Below are positions 1,836-54,191 of a DNA stretch of 64,000 nt, piece after piece (the stretch's first letter is position 1; each line of letters starts with the position of its first letter). A program made the translations under genes and the position numbers. The DNA is taken from assembly GCA_001600355.1 (NCBI GenBank), contig BCJU01000002.1, positions 434,001-498,000 on the forward strand. Reading direction: 5' to 3'. The DNA comes from Meira nashicola. Lineage: Eukaryota; Basidiomycota; Exobasidiomycetes; Exobasidiales; Brachybasidiaceae. The notes under the pieces were generated by a model that had not been told where the DNA came from, did not search any database, and saw only the letters and a list, made by a program, of their open reading frames with translations.

Positions 1836-2909
1836 TCAGAAGATTTTGATTGGAATTACTTGAGGATTGTAGAAGACTTGATACCAAAAAGCGAAAGAAG
1901 CGAGTGAATCGGGTTGGAAAGGATGTTGACTTATCGAATGCCGGGGATTGGTGAATGCTGATTGATTGTCGAATGTTGATTGAATGACAAATACTGGATG
2001 ATTGGCGAATGTTGATTGAATGACAAATGCTGGATGATTGGTGAATGTTGATTGATTGTCGAATGCTGGATGATTATCGAATGTTGGATGATTGTCGAAT
2101 GCTGGATGATTGTCGGATGTTGGATGATTGTCGGATGTTGGATAATTGTCGGATGTTGTTTGTTTGAGAAATGTTAGTTGATTGGCGAATGTTGATTCAT
2201 TGTACTTACTCTGATTGCTTGACTGTGGATTTTGACAATTTGTTCCTGCTTGACCGGCAATGATCAGACCGGTTTCATAATTAACACGTTCTCCACTTTT
2301 GGTAATGATGAATTGACGTTGAGATTTCATATCGGCTTGCAGGAATTGATCAACAAAATTGCGCATACATTGATCGTACGACAACAGCAAATGATGTACT
2401 TGATCATACTTGATGAAACCTTGATACCAAACAGCGAAAGAAGCGAGAAAAGAAGGAATGCTTTTGCACAAAGATGTTGTATTCTCCTTCGAAGATGAGT
2501 TTGTTGTGTAGTTCAAATCCATTGCGTTGGAAAGCAAGAAGAATTGCTTGATTTTCATGTAATTGATTGCCAAACAGATCGATTGGTCACCAATTACCTT
2601 GCACAGAGAGTTCAGATTGCCTACTCGATCCCAAATCGTAAGCTTGTTCGTTTCATGGTAAACGACTTTGATTGTTGCTTGAACTTTGATGGAAAGCACA
2701 ACAAATTGTACGAGCATCTTGTCTGCTGTACTTTTTGGGAACGAACCTTGCAAGTCTTGTTGTTGTTGTGGAACTGTTGCGTTTACTGTGGCTTCTTGAG
2801 TAGCAAATGGTTTTGAAGCAACTTTGAAAAAGTCTTGAACTTTGCGATACATAAAATTGACTGCATCGCAGATTTGAAGGATCACGTCGTGAGAAATGAA
2901 GTTGAACAT
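1836..2909 (-). CDS. repeat-element ORF with C-terminal hexapeptide repeats (copy 1)
   Basis: An open frame of 357 codons from the ATG at 2909. I do not recognise the family. Residues 1 to about 230 are non-repetitive, with Phe/Gln/Asn-rich stretches such as VQDFFKVASKPF and LLLSYDQCMRN. The rest is a six-residue repeat (DNHPAF-like) encoded by the 18-bp minisatellite. The non-repeat part is almost identical to the 341-codon frame in copy 2, and length differences fall in the Gln run and the repeat array. The frame is kept in both copies, so it may be a real element protein. A GTAAGTAC at the start of the array could instead be a splice donor that removes the repeats. No clear signal peptide or transmembrane segment. 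Confidence 0.45.
   Translation of the reverse strand: MFNFISHDVILQICDAVNFMYRKVQDFFKVASKPFATQEATVNATVPQQQQDLQGSFPKSTADKMLVQFVVLSIKVQATIKVVYHETNKLTIWDRVGNLNSLCKVIGDQSICLAINYMKIKQFFLLSNAMDLNYTTNSSSKENTTSLCKSIPSFLASFAVWYQGFIKYDQVHHLLLSYDQCMRNFVDQFLQADMKSQRQFIITKSGERVNYETGLIIAGQAGTNCQNPQSSNQSKYNESTFANQLTFLKQTTSDNYPTSDNHPTSDNHPAFDNHPTFDNHPAFDNQSTFTNHPAFVIQSTFANHPVFVIQSTFDNQSAFTNPRHSISQHPFQPDSLASFAFWYQVFYNPQVIPIKIF
1935..2200. repeat. 18-bp minisatellite in the copy-1 ORF
   Basis: Tandem degenerate 18-bp units built on TGGATGATTGTCGAATG on the plus strand, encoding a hexapeptide repeat on the minus strand. Copy 2 has the matching array at about 51300-51500 with different unit order and number. Confidence 0.7.
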
Positions 2910-43689: not shown

Positions 43690-44415
43690 GAGATCGATTT
43701 TTTTTCTTGTCGGAGGTTAGAAAGAAAGATGTTGTATTGAATCTGCTTCAAGTTTTTTACCCGTTTCCCGGTTCTTCGCGCCAATTAACACTTAAAGCGC
43801 GTTTTTTACGCCTGCGCCAAAAGTACTCCTCCAGCCACCAACACATTCAGCATGTTGAAACGCTACTTTTTGGCTGTGGATTCAAGATGGCGTTAGGCGT
43901 TTGATGGTAAGACTTGTCAACTTTGGTTTGATTACATTTGTAAAACAAATCTGTAATAAACAAATCTCGTAAATAGTTCCGCGCCCAATCAGCCTCATTT
44001 GTCAGATTTCACATCAAAGTGTTTATTCTTGGCAACCGTAATGAAGAGGGGCTTACCATGATGTCTTCTAAGCAAAGATAGGTGAGGATCGACAAATAAA
44101 TTGGCGTAAAAGTGAGTGTAAATGGGAATCGTAACAGTGTTTTGTCAAAACAATAATAAACGGATCTCATTAAAGGCATCTTGGACACAGCAATGCGTAC
44201 AAAGAACGGGATCATAGACAAGCCCCTCATAGGCGCATACATGCTCGATTGGCACTTTCTCGTATTTGCGATTGACGATCAATTTATTTTTCATACATCT
44301 TAGATTGGTAAAAGGTATATATAATGCCGTCTTTTTTAGATCAAACCATTTTTCGGCCTCATCGATCTATCGAATCCGTTATTTTACGGCAAATACATTA
44401 GTAGTATTTACCAAA
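43690..44415. other. divergent intergenic region between ATP11 and peptide precursor A
   Basis: 726 bases. The right part is the promoter of precursor A: GGCGTAAAA at 44103-44111 and TATATATAA at 44316-44324. TTGTCAA strings occur near 43912 and 44144. No gene was seen. Confidence 0.5.
44316..44324 (+). promoter_or_regulatory. TATA box of precursor A
   Basis: AAAGGTATATATAA, about 92-100 bases before the ATG. Precursors C and D share the AAAGGTATA context, and B has the shorter GGTATA. Confidence 0.55.
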
Positions 44416-45553
44416 ATGAAGCTGGCCTTCACAAATCTTCTCGCTCTCGTTGCTGCTTCTATGGTGCTGGTCATCATTGAATCTCAACAAGTTTCAGGTT
44501 CAACGGTAAGTAGACACATTACAATTTTTATATCTTGAAAAGTACTAATATTTTTCTCTACAGGAAGGAGAGCTTTACGTCAAACGTGGAGGAGGCGGTG
44601 GTGGTGCACGAAAAGCGGCACCCGCGGCAGGTGCGGCTGTTAAACCTAAAGGTGCTGGAGGTGCTGGAGGCGGTAAAGGCAAGGGAAACCCTACACCAAA
44701 AGGAAACCCAGCTGGTGCCGGTGCCGGTGCTGGTGGTGGTACAGGCAAAGGAAACCCTACACCAAAAGGAAACCCAGCCGGTGCCGGTGGTGGTACAGGC
44801 AAAGGAAAACCAGGTGGTGGTGGTGGTGGCAAAGGTGGCAAGGGTGGCGGAGGTGGCGGAGGTGGCGGAGGTGGCGGAGGTGCAGGGATGCGCAAACGTC
44901 AAATCAAAGAGGATTATGATTTTGATAAACGTGATTTGAACGCAAATGTTAATTTTGAAGACCGTGAACCAGAAAAGCGCGACTCTGAATTCTCTAATTC
45001 AGTTCCAACGAACTTGGAAAAACGTAATCATGGTATGGGAATGCCACCTATGGGTATGCCACCAATGGGTATGCATGGACCTGTAAAGCGTGATAATGAT
45101 GCAAGAATGTTCAAACGTCATTTTGGTGCACATCCGGGTAGAATGATGAAGCGCAAACTTGGATCAAGAATAAATACTGATTTGGCAAGACGTTCTTATC
45201 CGATGAGTGACCCTTCTGATAAAGGTATTAATATGGCAAAGCGTGAAGTAGATTTGCAAAGAAGTCAAAGCGATTTCATCAAACGCTCCCCCGCACCGAA
45301 TAAAGGTAAAGGAGGTCGTCATCGCGGTCCTCCCAGAAGAAGATTTAAGAAGCGTGAAATAGACTTGGAAACAAGTCAGAACGATTTCATTAAACGCTCA
45401 CCCGCACCAAATAAAGGAAAAGGAGGACATCGTCGCGGTCGTTATGGCAAGCGTGAATTAGACTTAGAAACAAGTCAAAGTGGTCTCATCAAACGTTCTC
45501 CAAGCTTAGGTGGAAAGGAGCGTTTTAGTTCTAATGGTCCTCGCTTCGATTGA
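44416..45553 (+). CDS. secreted KEX2-processed repeat peptide precursor A
   Basis: Two exons: 44416-44505 and 44564-45553, with a 58-nt intron (GTAAGT donor, TACTAAT branch, CTACAG acceptor); 359 residues. A signal peptide (about 1-27, LLALVAASMVLVII core) is followed by the first processing site YVKR. Then come a Gly-rich stretch with two copies of GKGNPTPKGNPAGAG, a Met/Gly/Pro peptide (NHGMGMPPMGMPPMGMHGPV between KR sites), and three related C-terminal units of the form E-[VIL]-DL-x-x-SQ-x-x-[FL]-IKR-SP, two of which continue APNKGKGG. About a dozen KR/RR sites are present. Known relatives in design, not in sequence, are Ustilago Rep1 and fungal alpha-factor-type precursors. Function unknown: surface peptide, signal or effector are all possible. 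Confidence 0.8.
44506..44563 (+). other. intron of precursor A
   Basis: 58 nt, GTAAGT...CTACAG with TACTAAT 12 bases before the acceptor; phase 0. Removing it joins a signal peptide to the Gly-rich repeat frame. Confidence 0.85.
45240..45520 (+). repeat. coding repeats of precursor A
   Basis: Three degenerate units of about 100 bp, each encoding an acidic heptad-like segment, an IKR site and an SP-start peptide. The first two carry PAPNKGKGG; the third is truncated (PSLGG). Confidence 0.7.
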
Positions 45554-46009
45554 TGAATTATCTTTAGGGATTGATTAATTCATAGTCTCTCTAGTTTTGT
45601 TAATGTTTTCAGTGAAATCTTATTCAATTTCATCAATTGAATCATTTCACAAAGGTGTCATATGAATTGCGTTTCAATTGCTATCCTTTGGTCCTTCATT
45701 GACGCCAAGGACAAAATGCTGAAAGGTTTTCAAGCAGTGCTATGTTAAAGATAGATGCGATATTTAAAGACGACTGCTCAACAATACATGCACAGCTTTT
45801 TTCACTGCCATTTCAACACAAACTGAAATGTTTGAAAGGCTTTCTTGCCATAAAGAGGAATTTCTTTTTTTATTTATTTCGCAAGCCACGATGGCGTCTC
45901 TTACAGGCCAAAGAGAATAAAGCCGCGAGAAAACGGCTGAAATGATTGATGAATGGTGAAGTATTTATCTTGACAAATTGTTAAAGTATTTGCATTTATA
46001 CGCTCCGAA

Positions 46010-46028
46010 GGCGTAAAGCAATATCACA
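46010..46028 (+). promoter_or_regulatory. GGCGTAAA-TATCACA motif upstream of precursor B
   Basis: GGCGTAAAGCAATATCACA, 129-147 bases before the ATG. The counterpart at 47011-47029 differs at three of 19 positions and sits at the same distance from precursor C. Confidence 0.5.
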
Positions 46029-46063
46029 CGATAATATTTTTATGATTGTACTCAAGTGATTGG

Positions 46064-46070
46064 TATAAAG
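46064..46070 (+). promoter_or_regulatory. TATA box of precursor B
   Basis: TTGGTATAAAG, about 87-93 bases before the ATG. Confidence 0.55.
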
Positions 46071-46156
46071 GAAGCCTTTCTTTAGCTAAACAAAATTTCC
46101 TTTTCTCCATCATCTTTCTTTTATCTATAGTTTAGCAAAAAAGATAAACATCAAGT

Positions 46157-46588
46157 ATGAAAGCAACTTTCTTTATCATTTTTATGATCGCCTTAACATT
46201 AACAATTAATGATGTAATTGATTGTAAAATTGCTTGTTACGGAGATGGTCCTGTTCCAGGCTGTAAACGTAAAACAAATGAAGCAAACACAGATACCGTT
46301 TTAGTCAAACGTCATGGTGGTTTTCATGGAATGCCTGGCTTTGGTGGAATGATGCCACCTATGGGACCACCTCCAGGAATGCACGGTATGCATGGAATGC
46401 CAATGATGCCTCCACCAAATGGAATGCGTGGTATGCCACCAATGGGTCCACCACCAGGTATGGGCGGTGGCGGTGGTATGCAAATGGGTGGTGAAGGTGG
46501 CGGTGAAGCTGCTGCAGAAAGACGTGAAATTAATCAACAAGAAACATTAACGATGGTAAAGCGTACAATTGCTCGAGCCCTTCATTGA
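46157..46588 (+). CDS. secreted KEX2-processed Met/Gly/Pro-rich precursor B
   Basis: 143 residues in one exon. Signal peptide about 1-23 (FFIIFMIALTLTI core), then a short Cys-containing pro-segment (CKIACYGDGPVPGCKRK). The LVKR site at about 48-51 releases a long peptide rich in Met, Gly, Pro and His (repeats of GMPPMGPPPGM), ending at ERR. An acidic spacer (EINQQETL) and MVKR follow, then the terminal peptide TIARALH. The signal and pro-segment are clearly related to precursor C next door, so the two arose by tandem duplication, while their C-terminal parts are unrelated. Function unknown. Confidence 0.78.
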   Translation: MKATFFIIFMIALTLTINDVIDCKIACYGDGPVPGCKRKTNEANTDTVLVKRHGGFHGMPGFGGMMPPMGPPPGMHGMHGMPMMPPPNGMRGMPPMGPPPGMGGGGGMQMGGEGGGEAAAERREINQQETLTMVKRTIARALH

Positions 46589-47010
46589 GGTTTAGTTTTC
46601 TTATTAAGCGCGAGCTTTTCATTTATCTTTTTTGTTTGTTTATCTTCTTTCTCATTTATACGCTTTTATGTTCTTTTCTTCCTCTTTTTCTTTATATTCA
46701 TTTCTTCCTTTTTTTATTTCAATTTAATCATTATAATTATATGACATTGTATCTTGAATGATTGTGTTTATCATTTATGCAAAATATAGTGTCATTGATA
46801 TTGTATTTAATTCACTATGATTTGCAATGTTGCCGAAGAGGATACGTTTGCTAAAAATCCTAAAAATGCAATGCTAAATAACACAGCATTGGCGTTTGTT
46901 CAAGGTTCGCTAAAATGTGTTTTAAAGTGTAAAAGCTACGCAAAAGACATTGCAATTCATGCTGTGTCTTTGGGGCTATCATATATGATCACTATTTGAT
47001 TTTTTTTTTT

Positions 47011-47029
47011 GGCGTAAAAAAGTATCACA
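47011..47029 (+). promoter_or_regulatory. GGCGTAAA-TATCACA motif upstream of precursor C
   Basis: GGCGTAAAAAAGTATCACA, 119-137 bases before the ATG; near copy of the element at 46010-46028. Confidence 0.5.
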
Positions 47030-47060
47030 AAAAAAAACATTTCTTAGACTGAAGTAAAGG

Positions 47061-47068
47061 TATAAAAA
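47061..47068 (+). promoter_or_regulatory. TATA box of precursor C
   Basis: AAAGGTATAAAAA, about 80-87 bases before the ATG. Confidence 0.55.
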
Positions 47069-47147
47069 TAGCATTTATTCGTCAAAAAATATTTTCTCCT
47101 TCCTCATTATCTCTCTCTTCTAAGAATTTAGCGAAAGATAAGCAAAT

Positions 47148-47632
47148 ATGATGAAAACGACTTTTCTTTTCTTCTTTACACTCGTATTGACATTAACGTT
47201 CAATGATGTAGTAGATTGTAAATTAGGATGTGGCCTCAATAGCCACGTTCCAGGTTGCGGACCCCAAACAAATTCTAATAAAAATGTGATGTTGTAATGA
47301 TGCAAGGTGAACAACCGATGATTAAACGTAATCCTTCTGGTGACGAATTTATTCCTAATGCTGGTTCAGGTGAACCTTATTCTGGAAATGATCCAAAGAT
47401 CAAAGCAGGTAGAGGTACTCCTGGTTATGACTCAAATGAAGTTCACAAATCACCTTTAAAACCATCTTCTAGTCCAAGAAAAGGTACAAAAGTTACGCCA
47501 ATCTCTACTCATACTTCTCACGGTACCGTTGTACATGCTGAACCAGATCCAGATAAAAAACAAACAAGTCCAACTTCCTCTCACGGTACAAAACTTGTCA
47601 AACGTAAAAACAGTCCTCCTTTTCGTGTATAA
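47148..47632 (+). pseudogene. KEX2-type peptide precursor C, frame broken
   Basis: The first frame (47148-47297) encodes a signal peptide and Cys-containing pro-segment homologous to precursor B (FNDVVDCKLGCG, VPGCG) and stops after 49 residues. The next frame starts at the overlapping ATG at 47297 (TAATG) and runs to 47632 in another phase. It continues in precursor style: MIKR followed by NPSGDEF, and near the end LVKR followed by the terminal KNSPPFRV. One missing base near 47290-47297 would explain the break. It may be a recent pseudogene, an assembly error, or less likely a stop-restart arrangement. The promoter still looks intact. Confidence 0.65.
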
Positions 47633-48587
47633 GATGTGGGAGTAAAGGCTCTAACTGTTATCGGTTCAACTCATGCCAAACATATCTCAGCATAGTTTGA
47701 TTATACTAATGAGAATACTCAATTTATATCTTTATCTTTTTTTTTATTGTCTAAATCAAATACACACCTTGTATATTCTTTTATAACTTTCTTCTTATAT
47801 GTCATCAATCCTATGTTTATTTCTCTTTAACTTTGTTCATTTGTCTGATCACACTAAGTTATGCTTCGATAAGCAACCTTTTCGACTAACCCAATTTTAT
47901 TGCTAAGCGAAGTCATACCTTATCCTGATAGCTAAAGGAAATATATCCGTTGCCAAGAGTTTCTCAATCAAATTTTCGTCCTTTCACGGATGTTTGGCTG
48001 ATGATAACTGTTGCCCCTTCCTTCAGTGATCGTATTTCGTAAGTCTTGACAAAGGGGCATATCGGATATATGGTAAGCAGGCAGTGAAATTTATAACCAA
48101 ACAATATTTCAGCCACAAATGGGCAAATGGCAACCACAGTACCCGTCTTACGCCTTTGTATCAGCCGCGTAACACTTGTCAAGACTGTGCTAATTGTTCT
48201 GGCGTATAACACTCGAAGAAGCTGTTCCATCTGATACAAACTCACAGCATCGGGCCACTTGATTTGTCAAGACGTTTGTCTTTACGGTGATTTCGAGGCT
48301 ATACATTCACTGCACAAACACAGCTATGCGTTCGGGTATCTTAATTGAGCTTTAAAAATCAAGACCCGTAATAGCAATGAACAGTTTCATTGAAGGCGTT
48401 CATGATGAAAAGAAATGACATTGAAGTTATCAAACAATGCATCTTTATTTGAAAGAATGAAAGGTATAAAAGAAGTCGATTTTGGTACTGTTCAATCTCT
48501 CTTTTCCTCATCCTCTTCAAAAAGGAAAAAGCAGCAAAACTTAAAGCAACATTTTAAATCTCTTCTTCTTTTTAATCTTTGATAACA
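47633..48587. other. intergenic between precursors C and D
   Basis: 955 bases without a supported gene. It holds three TTGTCAAG/CTTGACAA strings (about 48040, 48178, 48265), TTACGCC at 48148-48154 and the precursor D TATA box. Confidence 0.5.
48475..48482 (+). promoter_or_regulatory. TATA box of precursor D
   Basis: AAAGGTATAAAAG, about 106-113 bases before the ATG. Confidence 0.55.
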
Positions 48588-49280
48588 ATGATGAAGCCGG
48601 CCTTCGCAAAGATTGTTACTGTCTTAACTATTGCTTTAATTTTAATCGTCAATGATGAAGTAGACGGTAGATTAGAAAACGTCAATTCGATGAAAGTTGT
48701 TAAACGTGGCTTTCCAGGTCCTCCAGGTGGAATGCCACCAATGACGGGCATGGGAGGTCCACCACAAAAACGTGAAGTAGAATTGGAAAGCGATCAAACT
48801 CAACTTCAATTCGTCAAACGTTTTCATCCTCCTGGTGGAATGCCAATGGGTCCTGTCGCTCCTCCAAGTAAACGCAGTATCAATGATGACATCAATGACG
48901 AAACACCTTTCCAAAAGCGTTGTGGTGGCGGAATGGGCGGTCCACCACAAAAGCGTGGTGTTCATGATGAAGAGCCATTTGTGAAACGTTGCGGTGGCGG
49001 TGCAATGAGTGGTCCACCTCAAAAGCGTGAAATGGATGGTGAAATTGTTGAAACACTTGTCAAACGTCACGCACTCAACGCTGGTGGTCCTCCTTCTAAA
49101 CGTAGCATTGATGACCAAGTGAACGAAGGCAAAGGTGTTGAAACACTTGTCAAGCGTCACGCACACAATGCTGGCGGTCCTCCTTCTAAACGTAGCATTG
49201 ATGACCAAGTGAATGAAGGTAAAGGTGTTGAAACACTTGTCAAGCGTCACGCACACAATGCTGGCGGTCCTCCTTCTTGA
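48588..49280 (+). CDS. secreted multi-copy peptide precursor D (alternating acidic spacer and GGPP peptides)
   Basis: 230 residues from the ATG at 48588 (a second ATG follows directly; the frame before it starts with TTG). Signal peptide about 1-27. After the first site (VVKR) the protein alternates strictly: released peptide, KR, acidic spacer ending in a hydrophobic residue or pair plus KR (FVKR, LVKR; once PFQKR), next peptide. The peptides are GFPGPPGGMPPMTGMGGPPQ, FHPPGGMPMGPVAPPS, CGGGMGGPPQ, CGGGAMSGPPQ, HALNAGGPPS and two HAHNAGGPPS. The last copy ends exactly at the stop codon without a KR, so its natural C-terminus equals that produced after KR trimming in the others. This is the organisation of yeast alpha-factor or of RiPP precursors, but the sequence is unlike those I know. 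No CaaX box. Confidence 0.85.
   Translation: MMKPAFAKIVTVLTIALILIVNDEVDGRLENVNSMKVVKRGFPGPPGGMPPMTGMGGPPQKREVELESDQTQLQFVKRFHPPGGMPMGPVAPPSKRSINDDINDETPFQKRCGGGMGGPPQKRGVHDEEPFVKRCGGGAMSGPPQKREMDGEIVETLVKRHALNAGGPPSKRSIDDQVNEGKGVETLVKRHAHNAGGPPSKRSIDDQVNEGKGVETLVKRHAHNAGGPPS
49068..49280 (+). repeat. 90-bp tandem coding repeat of precursor D
   Basis: Units 49068-49157, 49158-49247 and a partial 49248-49280. The first two differ at only a few positions, so the expansion is recent. Confidence 0.85.
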
Positions 49281-49530
49281 TCATTATGTTGACTAGCTTT
49301 TCGGTTTCAATATCTGTGCTGGCTCACAGATGTTTTTTAGTTCTTCTCGTCTTATTGTTGGCTTTCCTCTTTTTACTACTCCTTTTCTCATTCTCAGCTT
49401 AGATCCTTTCTTCTTGTCTTTCTTTTCGCTTCAATGTCATCGTATATTTTATTGTACCTTCTTGCTTTTATTGATCATGAGAAAATAGCGACAAAAGATC
49501 TGAATATGAGTTCCAAATCAATGTTTTCCA
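49281..49530. other. 3' region of precursor D
   Basis: 250 T-rich bases up to the start of repeat copy 2. Nothing else was seen. Confidence 0.5.
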
Positions 49531-50134
49531 AACTTGATGTTACTCAGAGCAAATTCAGGTCAAACAATCATTTTCTCTCGAGCCGATAGGTATACAGAAG
49601 GCATAATGACCATCATTTTTTGGAAATGCTCGGCATAAACTTCGGATTTGGTGAATGATGGAAGTAATTAGGTAACACGTGTATGTACAGGTATATCTAT
49701 TTTACATAGCGCATTCATTCTGCTGTCCGCTTATTTAACCCATTGCACCTACAATCAACAGTATCAGTGAAAGGGTCAATCCTGTCTTATTTAATGTGTA
49801 ATGTCACACATTCGTAGACCGATTGTTGGAATCGGATTTGAGTTCCATCCGATAAGCGTGCCGCTCTGCCGGCCAATGAATGCAAACATAGATAGAGTGA
49901 TGTCGATCGTTAAATACCAGTGTCTGGCCTGCGGAAGGTATTGGATCCTGCTCTGTCATTCTCGATATGGTTCTTTGGATGATCACAACTTCATCGGCCA
50001 TACCGCGTTTCATCCCATTGGACAGTCGACGCTCTTACAGGATGTGCACGCTGGCAGGGCAGGCAGGCAGGCTTGTTTAGAAGGAGAATTGGATTTTGCC
50101 TGTTTCATTGGATGAGCCAGTGAGTGTTAATATT

Positions 50135-50380
50135 GGTACTGTCGGATGAACCGGATCAGCGGCAAGTTTGATAGCTACCAACTGACGCGAAAAGCATATA
50201 GCCCACCAGTAAGCTCAGCTTGGGCTTGTTTGTAGGGAGATTGATTTTGCCGTTGGTACATTGGTTGGGACAGTAGGTGTTCCATCGGGTACTGTCGGAT
50301 GAACTGTATGAGTGGCAAGGTTGATGGCTACCGATTGACTGAAAAGCATATAGCCCATCAGTAAGCTCAAATTGAAGTTT
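50135..50380 (+). repeat. internal direct repeat of repeat copy 2
   Basis: Two blocks starting GGTACTGTCGG at 50135 and 50288 (period 153 bp), each with AAAAGCATATAGCCC about 60 bp in. Confidence 0.7.
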
Positions 50381-50578
50381 GTTCACAATTCTACACGCAG
50401 AAGCTAATCGCATGAATGAAAATCAATAAAACCTATTCTCGCATCCCCAACTTCTACTTTCTTCCCGCCATCATTAAAAATCATCCTTTTTTTGAGACAT
50501 CGTTCACTCGAACTATACTTCGCTTTACCGCACACTTCATTACCATCTTCTTTTGTCATCAGACTACATCTTCCAAAC

Positions 50579-51604
50579 ATGTTCATCTTCTTTTCTCACG
50601 ACGTGATCCTTCAAATCTGCGATGCAGTCAACTTTATGTATCGCAAAGTTCAAGACTTTTTCAAAGTCGCTTCAAAACCATTTGCTACTCAAGAAGCCAC
50701 AGCAAACGCAACAGTTCCACAACAACAACAACAACAAGACTTGCCAGGTTCGTTCCCAAAAAGTACAGCAGACAAGATGCTCGTACAATTTGTTGCGCTT
50801 TCCATCAAAGTTCAAGCAACAATCAAAGTCGTTTACCATGAAACGAACAAGCTTACGATTTGGGATCGAGTAGGCAATCTGAACTCTCTGTGCAAGGTAA
50901 TTGGTGACCAATCGATCTGTTTGGCAATCAACAACATGAAGATCAAGCAATTCTTCTTGCTTTCCAACGCAATGGATTTGAACTACACAACAAACTCATC
51001 TTCGAAGGAGAATACAACATCTTTGTGCAAAAGCATTCCTTCTTTTTTCGCTTCTTTCGCTGTTTGGTATCAAGGTTTCATCAAGTATGATCAAGTACAT
51101 CATTTGCTGTTGTCGTACGATCAATGTATGCGCAATTCTGTTGATCAATTCCAGCAAGCCGACATGAAACCTCAACGTCCAATCATCATTACCAAAAGTG
51201 GAGAACGTGACAATTATGAAACCGGTCTGATCATTGCCGGTCAAGCAGGAACAAATTGTCAAAATGCACAATCAAACAATCAAAGTAAGTACAGTCAATC
51301 AACATTCGCCAATCAACTAACATTTGTCAAACAGCCAGCATTCGCCAATCAGTCAACAATCACCAATCAATCAGCATTCGCCAATCTATCAACACTTTCC
51401 AATCATCAACCATTCGACAATCAACCAGCATTCGACAATCAATCAACATTCGCCAATCAATCAGCATTCGATAATCAATCAACGATCAACAATCACCGGC
51501 ATTCGATAAGTCAAAATGCTTTTCGACCCGTTTCACTCGCTCCTTTCGCTTTTTGGTATCAATTCTTCTATAATCCTCAAGTAATTCCAATCGAAATCTT
51601 CTGA
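50579..51604 (+). CDS. repeat-element ORF with C-terminal hexapeptide repeats (copy 2)
   Basis: 341 codons from the ATG at 50579 (the upstream frame begins with TTG). Close homologue of the copy-1 ORF: residues 1 to about 235 differ by scattered substitutions, and the Gln run is two residues longer. The C-terminal part is the hexapeptide array (FANQSA-like). No family recognised. The alternative reading is a splice donor GTAAGT at 51285 with an acceptor near 51620, which would remove the array. Confidence 0.45.
   Translation: MFIFFSHDVILQICDAVNFMYRKVQDFFKVASKPFATQEATANATVPQQQQQQDLPGSFPKSTADKMLVQFVALSIKVQATIKVVYHETNKLTIWDRVGNLNSLCKVIGDQSICLAINNMKIKQFFLLSNAMDLNYTTNSSSKENTTSLCKSIPSFFASFAVWYQGFIKYDQVHHLLLSYDQCMRNSVDQFQQADMKPQRPIIITKSGERDNYETGLIIAGQAGTNCQNAQSNNQSKYSQSTFANQLTFVKQPAFANQSTITNQSAFANLSTLSNHQPFDNQPAFDNQSTFANQSAFDNQSTINNHRHSISQNAFRPVSLAPFAFWYQFFYNPQVIPIEIF
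51300..51500 (+). repeat. 18-bp minisatellite in the copy-2 ORF
   Basis: About eleven degenerate 18-bp units of the form TTCGCCAATCAATCAGCA. Confidence 0.75.
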
Positions 51605-51894
51605 TCAAGCAAGCAAACAGGTAATCATGATAAGTATAAAGTCCGCGAAACGGTCTGACCAGCGGTGATCCAGAGCACCTTTCTGAATGAAAGGTCTATG
51701 ACGGCATCTTCTGTGCTCGAAGATGTTTGATGGGCCGAGTAAAACAAAAGTGGGTCATTGTGAAGTCGGACTGGGAAGGATGATTTGAGTTGATGGCATG
51801 GTGCTGGTCACTAATGTTGTTGGCAAAGAAGATCTCCTTCTTCAAAGACTTGGTCAACATTCAAGCTCTCTACGATCATCAAAGCAATCACTCG

Positions 51895-52045
51895 ACAATC
51901 TTCGCCATCAATCGACATCCAGCAATCTTTCGCCATCAATCAGCATTCGACAACCTTCGCCATCAATCGACATCCAGCAACCTTCGCCATCAATCAAGCA
52001 ATCAGAGGTGAGTACAATCAATCAAGCAATCAGAGGTGAGTACAT
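51895..52045 (+). repeat. second minisatellite of repeat copy 2
   Basis: About four units near 27 bp (CAACCTTCGCCATCAATCGA core), then two copies of AATCAGAGGTGAGTACA, each holding a GTGAGT that resembles a splice donor. Confidence 0.65.
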
Positions 52046-52329
52046 TCAATCAACATTCGACAACTTTATCACATTACATCCTCTTTTACGGGGCACCTTT
52101 CAACCAACCACCGCCTGTTCTGTGAGGCTTGCCGAGCAGATGGTACTCGTGACGATCGAAAGGTCTGATCAAAAAACACCCGCCTGACCTCTTTGGCTTG
52201 CCATAGAAAAGGTTCCCGTGAAGTTTGAAAGAGCTTCACACCAGTAGCCTCTTCTTACATTGGATAAAAAGATGGTGATCATCAAAAAACAAACCCAAAA
52301 CCAAACTGAAAGGTGCCCCTGGGTTTTTC

Positions 52330-52366
52330 CCTGGGCTCTGGGCTCTGAGGAGCTCAGACGCCCAGG
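52330..52366. repeat. GC-rich hairpin near the 3' end of repeat copy 2
   Basis: CCTGGGC/GCCCAGG outer stem with an inner GAGCTC-centred stem; same structure as 1121-1157. Confidence 0.7.
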
Positions 52367-52470
52367 TTTTTTGATTTTTTTTGCTGACTAAGCAGCTTAT
52401 GTAATCACTACTCACTACAAACAATTCAATATAATATTATTTAATCAATCACCTGACCTGCCTGCCTGCT

Positions 52471-53170
52471 ATTCATAATAAGTCTCACTAAGGTATTCTA
52501 ATAATAATAATCATCATACTTAGTCACTTGCCATCATTATCAATTTTTTCGCTTTAATAACATATTGTCGTTATAATTTCAATTGCTTTCTTTCCAAATT
52601 GCAATGATACCTCACCCTACTGATTTTATGCAGTTGCCTTTTGCAAAGCTTTACTTCCTACCTTGACAAAGAAAAGCTTAGAGGTAATAAAGAATGTTCA
52701 TCTTCTTAAGGAAATAATTCCATGATTTATCTCCATTACACTTTTGCTTCAGATTGTCTCATTTGAAGTACATCTCCTTCTGTAATCGCATTGACCGTGA
52801 ATGATTCTTTTTTATCCAGATTATTTCGTACATCCGATGCATTGTTCTTTGCTTGTGGCTGTGAATCCTAACAATGAGGACATCAGGATACTAGCAATGT
52901 CAATATAAATGTACTAAGCCTTATGACGTACTTTTCTCGGAGAAGTTAATCGAAATTGGGGCTATGTGATGCACAATAAGCGTTTATAGGAAACATTCTG
53001 AACAAACTTGTTGTCAAGATATTATTGACGCCAACACTGCCAATGTATGCTAATCGCCCCTTCATGTCTTTTTGCGTAAAATTAATTTTATTGCCAAAAA
53101 GCATAAAAAGGTCTGAATTTGGTCATTAATTAGCAATCGACCCCCATCTCTTTTTGGCACAAAATCAAAA
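52471..53170. other. intergenic between repeat copy 2 and precursor E
   Basis: 700 AT-rich bases. Precursor E promoter: GCGTAAA at 53074-53080 and a weak CATAAAAAG at 53102-53110. A TTGTCAAG occurs near 53013. No gene was seen. Confidence 0.5.
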
Positions 53171-54191
53171 ATGAAGCTGGTTTCTTCTTTTATTTTCTCA
53201 TTTGCGGTGTTTAATGCATTATTGTTTGTGACCTTGGCAAACCCTCAATATGGTCCAGTAAGTGTTATCATGATTCATTCATTCATTTTGTTCCAAATGC
53301 TTACCTTCTTTTGTCACATTCACCTAGGATCGTCATAATCATATCCCGTCGGGTATCATGCTACAAGATTTAAGTGAATTAAAGCAACCATTGTATGAAG
53401 AAGTCTTTTGCCTTGAAGGAAGTATGGATTGCGATATCAACCTTAAGCGATGCAATGAAAGTTGCATTTGTATGTGTGAAGGTGATGAATTGATTCTTGA
53501 AGATTGCCAAGAGGAGATGAAAAACGAAATTTTAATGAAACGTGAGACGATAAACAATCATCAGAATCGCATCGGTAATCAAATCATTTTGCCTCGTAGC
53601 TTAACTACAGTTCATCCAAAAGTGACAAATGAAGGTATCAGTCAACCAATGTTTATCAAACGTATGGCAGCGTCACCTCCTTCAATTCATGATAAATCGT
53701 TGCACCAAAAGCGTAGTACGAATGATGAAAGCGTTCAACGGCCAAGTTTGATCAAACGTATGGCGGTCGGTCATGAGAATATCGTCACGCACAATGGTAA
53801 GCCTGCCATGATGCTACCGCGTCGTGAAACGAGAAGTGGGGCTGAAGATGTAAAGATGGTAAGGCGTATGGCGATTGGTAATGAAATGAGAAGGGCTCCA
53901 CACGATTTCAAGATCACAATGCGTCGTCGTCAGTATGATTCAAGTCCGACACTTGTCAAAAGAAAACATGTCGATCTTGAAAAGTCATTCAACCTAAATC
54001 ATCCGGATGGCATAGTGCAAAAACGTGAAGTAAAAAACGATGAAAAGCAGATCAAGATGGTAAAACGTACGGCGATTGGTACTGAAATGAAACATGTTTC
54101 GGATGAACATTGGAGTATGCCACATCGTCGTGAAAATCTTGATAATCCAAATGCCGAACCAGTGCATTTGATCAAACGTATGGCATTATGA
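53171..54191 (+). CDS. secreted KEX2-processed repeat peptide precursor E
   Basis: Two exons: 53171-53257 and 53328-54191, joined in phase 0; 316 residues. Signal peptide about 1-23 (FAVFNALLFVTLA). A seven-cysteine segment follows (about residues 51-82, with CNESCICMC). Then come repeated processing sites of the form (hydrophobic)-[IV]-[KR]R, each followed by a related peptide start: MAASPPS, MAVGHEN, MAIGNEM, TAIGTEM, and finally MAL at the stop. Downstream cuts are RR or KR (MLPRR, MPHRR). The intron position just after the signal peptide matches precursor A. The Cys segment has no counterpart in A to D and could be a folded pro-domain. Function unknown. Confidence 0.8.
53258..53327 (+). 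other. intron of precursor E
   Basis: 70 nt, GTAAGT donor and CACCTAG acceptor, phase 0. It lies six codons after the predicted signal peptide, a position like that of the precursor A intron. Confidence 0.8.

Follow-up and report, generated by a model that had tools for sequence, protein, structure and literature searches.

Organization of the precursor island

The window, a 64,000-nucleotide stretch of Meira nashicola contig BCJU01000002.1, contains four candidate peptide-precursor genes, A, B, D and E, all on the + strand, and a doubtful fifth, C (Table 1). A hydrophobic N-terminus of the signal-peptide type, as judged by eye, is present in A, B, D, E and the first frame of C, and a Pfam scan of A, B, D, E and the second frame of C found no domain above cut-off. 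Five secreted genes with multiple cleavage sites had been predicted originally; this description fits A, B, D and E, which have a likely signal peptide and 4–18 KR/RR sites, far above shuffled numbers, and whose products are likely to be secreted, but it is doubtful for C, whose signal-peptide and KR frames differ. The tail peptides named in that prediction are correct in sequence, although MAL, at the end of E, is replaced by tails of 16 residues in M. miltonrushii and 18 residues in P0005.

Table 1. Positions of genes and associated features within the window.
Feature	Position	Strand	Description
Gene A	44416..45553	+	359-aa precursor; intron 44506-44563; KR/RR at 18 sites; block rich in Gly; three spacers of the form E-[VIL]-D-L; peptides starting with SP
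GGTATATA, GGTATAWA form, upstream of A	44314..44321	+	same form near 46062 (B), 47059 (C), 48463 (D)
C-terminal peptide of A (SPSLGGKERFSSNGPRFD)	45497..45550	+	SLGGKER.S..GPR kept in both relatives
Gene B	46157..46588	+	143-aa precursor; 69-aa piece rich in Met, His, Gly and Pro; tail TIARALH (46565-46585)
C, first frame	47148..47297	+	signal peptide and B-like head; closed by TAA 47295-47297
C, second frame	47297..47632	+	111-aa ORF; two hhKR sites; tail KNSPPFRV; putative link to first frame
Segment with D and repeat	47563..52536	+	inverted copy at about G000:C2:509208-514400, carrying D2
Gene D	48588..49280	+	230-aa precursor; Gly/Pro-rich peptides separated by acidic spacers; tail HAHNAGGPPS at 49248-49277
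Dispersed repeat, about 3 kb, edges approximate	49558..52536	+	between D and E; phosphoglucose-isomerase fragment ORF 50579-51604; not a peptide gene
Gene E	53171..54191	+	316-aa precursor; intron 53258-53327; 15 KR/RR sites; a number of distinct conserved peptides

C is a doubtful gene that may be broken or mis-read, and its earlier treatment as a single gene is not confirmed: the signal-peptide frame closes and the two KR sites sit in a different frame. With these two sites only, the second frame falls below the four-fragment threshold used for KEPs, the known precursors with which the island is compared below. Eight GT-AG pairs are able to join the two frames and none is compelling; the intron from the best-looking donor would excise sequence that corresponds to a coding part of B, which leaves a single spliced gene doubtful.

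Relationships among the genes were assessed by pairwise comparison of the N-terminal 34 residues against 1000 shuffles. The B–C and C–D similarities were matched in 0/1000 shuffles and those of A–D and B–D at frequencies of 0.007 and 0.012, whereas no link is seen for A–B (0.43), A–C (0.42) or E with any island gene (0.61, 0.62 and 0.66, and 0.08 for C–E). These values suggest that B, C and D, perhaps with A, arose by duplication, and that E lacks a sequence link to the others; the proposal of one family thus stands for B–C and C–D, less strongly for A–D and B–D, and not for the remaining pairs. Searches of the M. nashicola genome returned B itself and C with the B head, only the query with E, and, with A, the query and a single weak hit on contig C1 (E 0.93, 35%); these searches are similarity-based and would not reveal precursors of unrelated sequence elsewhere. 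The case for co-regulation, also proposed originally, is weak: GGTATAWA lies at most 150 bp upstream of four of the five island genes (A–D) and of none of 15 control genes, but shared upstream 9-mers show no excess (3 in the island against a control mean of 4.5).

Gene D has a paralogue, D2, located 29 kb away and outside the window. With D as query, a search of 1026 candidates gave only D2 and one record from a fern. Terminal inverted repeats were sought on the approximately 3 kb dispersed repeat, and only weak pairs, none clearly terminal, were found.

Two kinds of dibasic site

KR/RR sites are in large excess over shuffled sequences in all four precursors, with 18 against a mean of 6.6 in A, 4 against 0.6 in B, 13 against 2.0 in D and 15 against 3.9 in E (P ≤0.0005 for each; 10,000 shuffles), and cutting at them would divide each precursor into at least four fragments, as the KEP criterion specifies. 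A pair of hydrophobic residues precedes 23 of 50 island sites (hhKR sites) and 22 of 99 in 15 other ORFs of the window (P 0.004). With the sites held fixed, such pairs number 8 against 1.0 expected in A, 6 against 1.1 in D and 7 against 2.0 in E, and 2 against 0.45 in B (P 0.07). The hydrophobic pair noted in the original prediction is therefore enriched about twofold relative to other window ORFs, but it is not unique to the island.

The island sites are of two kinds: hydrophobic-pair sites open Gly/Pro-rich, non-acidic pieces, and the other sites open acidic spacers. First, the 16 fragments that end at hhKR contain 25% Asp/Glu and have a mean charge of −2.6, whereas the 17 that start after it contain 3.7% and have a mean charge of +0.9 (P 2e-6). 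Second, Gly plus Pro account for 7% of residues in the former and 36% in the latter (P 9e-5). Third, of the 23 fragments that follow hhKR, 11 have Ala or Pro as their second residue, against only 1 of the 24 that follow other sites (P 7e-4), and these X-Ala/X-Pro starts on about half of the post-hhKR pieces resemble a signature of Ste13 trimming; with D2 included there are 12, against 8.3 expected from composition (P 0.09). Strict alternation of the two kinds in A, B, D and E is marginal (30/44 against 24.0, P 0.045). Four relatives show the pattern less strongly (acidic residues P 0.14, charge P 0.05, Gly plus Pro P 0.36, alternation P 0.21), and the X-Ala/X-Pro contrast is weaker there as well (9/23 versus 5/26, P 0.2). 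Repeated copies among the fragments are non-independent data.

Ustiloxin-type precursors have the same layout of signal peptide and Kex2 sites (PMC7329392), which raises the question of whether the gene products mature into modified cyclic peptides (dikaritin-type RiPPs). We regard this as extremely unlikely: D has no Tyr and B a single one, located in the head (with 4 in A and 3 in E, the Tyr count speaks against this reading for D and B only), and neither UstYa nor a methyltransferase was seen in the 13 that were scanned of 18 other window ORFs of at least 180 aa. A genome-wide UstYa search gave no match, with the control silent too. The original argument against a classic RiPP cluster is one with which we agree.

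Conservation of sites and peptides

Relatives of E and A are present in M. miltonrushii. In E, the Lys and Arg residues of the cut sites are still basic at 20 of 22 aligned positions in M. miltonrushii and 16 of 18 in P0005, compared with 10/16 and 7/13 for Lys and Arg outside sites, and other residues are identical at 99/213 and 83/179. The cut sites of E are thus better kept than the rest of its residues. Fragments after hhKR are identical at 63/108 and 51/90 positions in these two relatives, and the other fragments at 31/81 and 28/71; the closest relative, P0003, shows no such difference (112/121 versus 92/99). The conserved candidate peptides of E are [MT]AIG.EM..VS.E.W.MPH, KH.D....F..NHPDGIV and ETIN.HQ.R...QII. 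Gene A has relatives P0006 (M. miltonrushii) and P0007, which keep SLGGKER.S..GPR of its C-terminal peptide; the counterpart in M. miltonrushii of another A piece, NHGMGMPPMGMPPMGMHGPV, is similar in composition and different in sequence.

The D/D2 comparison gives dN/dS values of 0.38 (213 codons) and 0.43 (139 codons; bootstrap 0.23–0.82). Products (0.38) show no stronger constraint than spacers (0.29); in the head, 32 codons carry 4 nonsynonymous and 0 synonymous changes. The locus is repeat-rich and adjoins a dispersed repeat, and C is broken or mis-read, as might be expected if the genes were relics of repeat expansion encoding low-complexity proteins with uncut KR/RR sites; the site conservation in E, the D/D2 dN/dS below 1 and the site excess make this very unlikely.

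Met motifs and an N-terminal HAH are copper-binding motifs, and the Met/His/Gly/Pro-rich pieces could act mainly by composition, coating the hypha or binding copper, rather than as sequence-specific signals. Non-acidic fragments contain 19.7% Met and 6.6% His in B, and 8.0% Met and 6.9% His in D; NHGMGMPPMGMPPMGMHGPV keeps composition but not sequence; and in Ustilago maydis, Rep1 peptides govern properties of the hyphal wall (PMC6339444). Such a role is nonetheless unlikely, as some pieces of E, like the A tail, keep their sequence and not composition alone, and the Ste13 signature seen in the island is absent from Rep1 (PMC6339444). A literature search on Kex2 with Met-rich copper binding gave nothing relevant among the matches listed.

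Predicted processing and relation to known precursors

We propose that the signal peptide would carry each precursor into the ER and that Kex2 would cut at the dibasic sites, perhaps at the hydrophobic ones first. A Kex1-type carboxypeptidase would take off the C-terminal KR, a Ste13-type dipeptidase would remove X-Ala/X-Pro from some pieces (SPAP in A, HA in D, MA/TA in E), and the acidic spacers would be thrown away after cutting. The genome has one P-domain protease gene, with an S8 plus P-domain frame (G000:C3:1728534-1729820) whose best PDB match is yeast Kexin (E 1e-134), so that Kex2 occurs in the same genome, as the KEP criteria specify; it also has one DPPIV_N match (a DPPIV-type gene) and 22 matches to S10 carboxypeptidase. 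A mushroom KEP produced in Pichia was cleaved at RR and its XA/XP trimmed (PMC9769878). The site excess, the conservation of sites in E relatives and the Kex2 gene together support the original prediction of secreted, Kex2-cut precursors for A, B, D and E, C not being an evident gene, and predicted release of many small peptides by Kex2 is probably the best explanation of the whole.

The Kex2/Ste13 layout is like that of ascomycete alpha-type precursors (PMC6339444), but mating pheromones are an explanation to which we give almost no weight. The tails PRFD, RALH, GPPS and RMAL have no CaaX look, the second frame of C ends in FRV, and the four STE3 matches (three over cut-off) are all on contig C1 and none on C2. 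Judged from sequence, the most likely role of the released peptides would be extracellular signalling or plant-surface contact. The first finds of Meira were on cadavers of mites, and it was later met as an endophyte in several plants (PMC10583550), so a role of the peptides between fungus, plant and mite is conceivable; a literature search gave nothing on secreted Meira peptides among the matches listed. KEP functions are described as largely unknown, and Coprinopsis KEP knock-outs as without detectable phenotype (PMC9769878). Because the conserved candidate peptides of A and E are named precisely, synthesis, knock-out and receptor tests are possible.

The island is probably of a known kind, the KEPs (PMC6339444, PMC7329392, PMC9769878), in variant form. 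It shares with them a likely signal peptide, numerous KR/RR sites, the predicted release of peptides, repeated pieces in D and D2, and Ste13-type N-termini, which some basidiomycete KEPs have (PMC6339444). The KEP repeat rule asks for three or more similar fragments that make up 15% or more of the protein (PMC6339444); in our own approximation, which differs from the published pipeline, it includes D (5 copies, 22%) and D2 (6 copies, 19%), but A has 3 copies covering 10%, B and E have one each, and the relatives of E and A in M. miltonrushii have one and two. D thus passes the KEP rules as approximated and A does so in part, whereas B and E are non-repetitive and prohormone-like. The island also differs in its acidic spacers between pieces and its four to five precursors side by side. 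Two or three motif types occur in 79 of 1193 KEPs (PMC6339444); the words 'spacer' and 'acidic' are absent from the main texts of PMC6339444 and PMC9769878, and a literature search nowhere coupled KEX2-processed repeat proteins with acidic and spacer. Should non-repetitive precursors like B and E be processed, surveys built on repeats would undercount the peptide hormones of fungi.

Ustilago maydis Rep1 is likewise a basidiomycete peptide precursor cut by Kex2, but its peptides are 37 aa and, in what PMC6339444 reports, it is without a Ste13 signature. Ascomycete alpha-factor precursors share the X-Ala/X-Pro dipeptides after Kex2 sites, but the island pieces differ among themselves and the island contig has no STE3 match. 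Animal neuropeptide prohormones carry several different peptides per precursor with acidic spacers between them, a likeness to the island in layout only, for which homology is not claimed. We tentatively raise the possibility of a basidiomycete prohormone locus, in which side-by-side, partly non-repetitive precursors would use two classes of Kex2 site to part acidic discard segments from different signalling peptides, with Ste13-type trimming then following. Such a layout, if true, would resemble that of animal neuropeptide precursors, and repeat-based surveys would overlook loci of this type.

Gene content and history of the island

The island of candidate secreted, Kex2-cut peptide precursor genes lies in a genome of 17.88 Mb and 20 contigs (window G000:C2:434001-498000), and is bordered by ordinary genes: ATP11 and MmgE/PrpD on the left, and to the right genes for a leucine-rich-repeat protein and one of Pex2/Pex12 type. 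The original prediction named five genes; four of these (A, B, D and E) stand, and C is doubtful, its signal-peptide and KR-bearing frames being separate. At G000:C2:506910-508230, two neighbouring similar ORFs have, as judged by eye, hydrophobic N-termini followed by SIRRRKN, and are possibly another secreted pair.

Coordinates of island genes, the D paralogue and repeat-borne fragments (window positions unless a contig is named)
Feature	Position	Strand	Remark
A	44416-45553	+	gene model; intron 44506-44563
B	46157-46588	+	gene model
C, signal-peptide frame	47148-47297	+	apart from the KR-bearing frame
C, KR-bearing frame	47297-47632	+	separate frame
D	48588-49280	+	gene model
E	53171-54191	+	gene model; intron 53258-53327
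D2	G000:C2:512464-513390	minus	D paralogue
Repeat, ~3 kb	49558-52536	+	carries phosphoglucose isomerase fragment
Phosphoglucose isomerase fragment	50579-51604		
Phosphoglucose isomerase fragment	1836-2909		
Phosphoglucose isomerase fragment	G000:C2:510177-511280		
Phosphoglucose isomerase fragment			eight other matches

When the N-termini are compared, B is linked to C and C to D, and less strongly A and B each to D; A shows no link to B or C, nor E to any island gene. A, B, C and D each have the motif GGTATAWA no more than 150 bp upstream; it is absent for E and occurs at none of 15 control genes. Its presence at A–D may reflect ancestry rather than co-regulation, given the relatedness of B, C and D; shared upstream 9-mers number three in the island versus a control mean of 4.5 (P 0.44).

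The gap between D and E is due to the ~3 kb repeat, which together with D has an inverted copy ~29 kb downstream, and within which inverted repeats are weak only, none clearly terminal. The phosphoglucose isomerase fragment (Pfam positions ~150–337, some copies shorter) occurs in 11 places besides the full gene and is a multiplied piece of that host gene. Ten of the 11 copies sit in open frames of 294–415 aa, the median dN/dS for nine copies is 0.7, and the surrounding DNA is also similar among the matches listed.

Dibasic sites and the fragments between them

KR and RR sites number 18 in A, 4 in B, 13 in D and 15 in E, against shuffled means of 6.6, 0.6, 2.0 and 3.9 (P ≤ 0.0005). With the sites held fixed, two hydrophobic residues precede 8/18, 2/4, 6/13 and 7/15 of them respectively, B by itself not being significant (P 0.07). 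Such pairs precede 23 of 50 sites in the island versus 22 of 99 in 15 other window ORFs (P 0.004).

These sites (hhKR) and the remaining ones delimit two kinds of fragment, typed solely by the residues preceding the flanking sites. Fragments running from another site to an hhKR site (n = 16; putative spacers) are acidic, with 25.4% Asp/Glu, a mean charge of -2.6 and 7% Gly+Pro, whereas those running from an hhKR site to another site or the end (n = 17; putative products) are not (3.7%, +0.9 and 36%). Ala or Pro occupies position 2 in 11 of 23 fragments after hhKR versus 1 of 24 after other sites (P 7e-4), with 5.4 expected from the fragments' own composition (P 0.006). When D2 is added the count is 12 versus 8.3 expected (P 0.09), which counts against this signature. 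In four relatives the contrast between fragment classes is weaker (P 0.14 for acidic residues, 0.05 for charge and 0.36 for Gly+Pro); their position-2 Ala/Pro frequency is 9/23 after hhKR versus 5/26 after other sites (P 0.2), and after hhKR still exceeds the composition expectation (P 0.001). In A, SPAPNKG corresponds to SPEPNKG in Meira miltonrushii, the varying residue being flanked by fixed prolines, a pattern that would be expected if dipeptides were trimmed to leave NKG.

Relatives and selective constraint

The M. miltonrushii relative of gene E is P0004 (44% across the full query); P0005 is a partial relative (47%, covering 49%) and P0003 a close form (92%, covering 88%). The relative of A in M. 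miltonrushii is P0006 (39% over 98% of searched residues 134–359), with P0007 a weak relative (30%, E = 0.02); the M. miltonrushii relatives of A and E may be linked to each other. P0002 (Adiantum nelumboides L7F22_050291), filed as a fern protein, is a fused model in which parts of A, B, C and D occur. It is likely fungal contamination of a fern assembly, in agreement with the available text of PMC10583550, which describes a fern scaffold whose remaining genes are fungal and whose protein clusters with Meira proteins. Taken together, the matches suggest that the window comes from a Meira-like fungus.

With gapped positions set aside (6 of 15 dibasic pairs are gapped in one or both relatives), the dibasic K/R residues of E are still basic at 20/22 aligned positions in M. 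miltonrushii and 16/18 in P0005, non-site K/R at 10/16 and 7/13, and other residues are identical at 99/213 and 83/179; one of the 15 pairs is DE in both. Identity is 63/108 and 51/90 in fragments after hhKR, and 31/81 and 28/71 in other fragments; against P0003 the two kinds do not differ (112/121 vs 92/99). E and P0003 stop at MAL (54180-54188), at which point M. miltonrushii and P0005 show a longer tail, beginning MAVGHENRV. The A tail SLGGKER.S..GPR is conserved in both relatives. D and D2 are 80% identical in one comparison and 54% by local alignment. Their dN/dS is 0.38 across the 213 codons that align; for 139 codons from the first part it is 0.43 (bootstrap range 0.23–0.82). Their products (0.38) are not under more constraint than the spacers (0.29), and the 32-codon head has four nonsynonymous and no synonymous changes.

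Processing enzymes and known systems

The genome has one P-domain match, in the same frame as an S8 domain and with yeast Kexin as best solved relative, one DPPIV_N match, and 22 S10 matches counted by exon, among which Kex1 is not singled out. Ten S10 carboxypeptidase matches are clustered at G000:C1:4532491-4551167. A genome search for UstYa was empty, its control being equally silent, and STE3 gave four matches, three above cut-off, all on contig C1.

Genes A, B, D and E are real and likely functional precursors of a known kind, the KEX2-processed repeat proteins (KEPs), as defined in the available parts of PMC6339444, PMC7329392 and PMC9769878. These sources also describe Ste13 signatures in some basidiomycete KEPs, with a hormone role proposed (PMC6339444), and a mushroom KEP that was cut and trimmed in Pichia, along with a kep knock-out that, in the text available, had no detectable phenotype (PMC9769878). 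Under our own approximation of the published repeat rule, D passes with 5 copies that cover 22% of the protein, the 3 copies in A cover 10%, and B and E have none. We therefore regard the island as a whole as working like a KEP locus, in which D fits, save that its signal peptide was judged solely by eye, and the strict definition leaves B and E outside, as multi-peptide precursors; what is unusual is the two-class site layout and the clustering.
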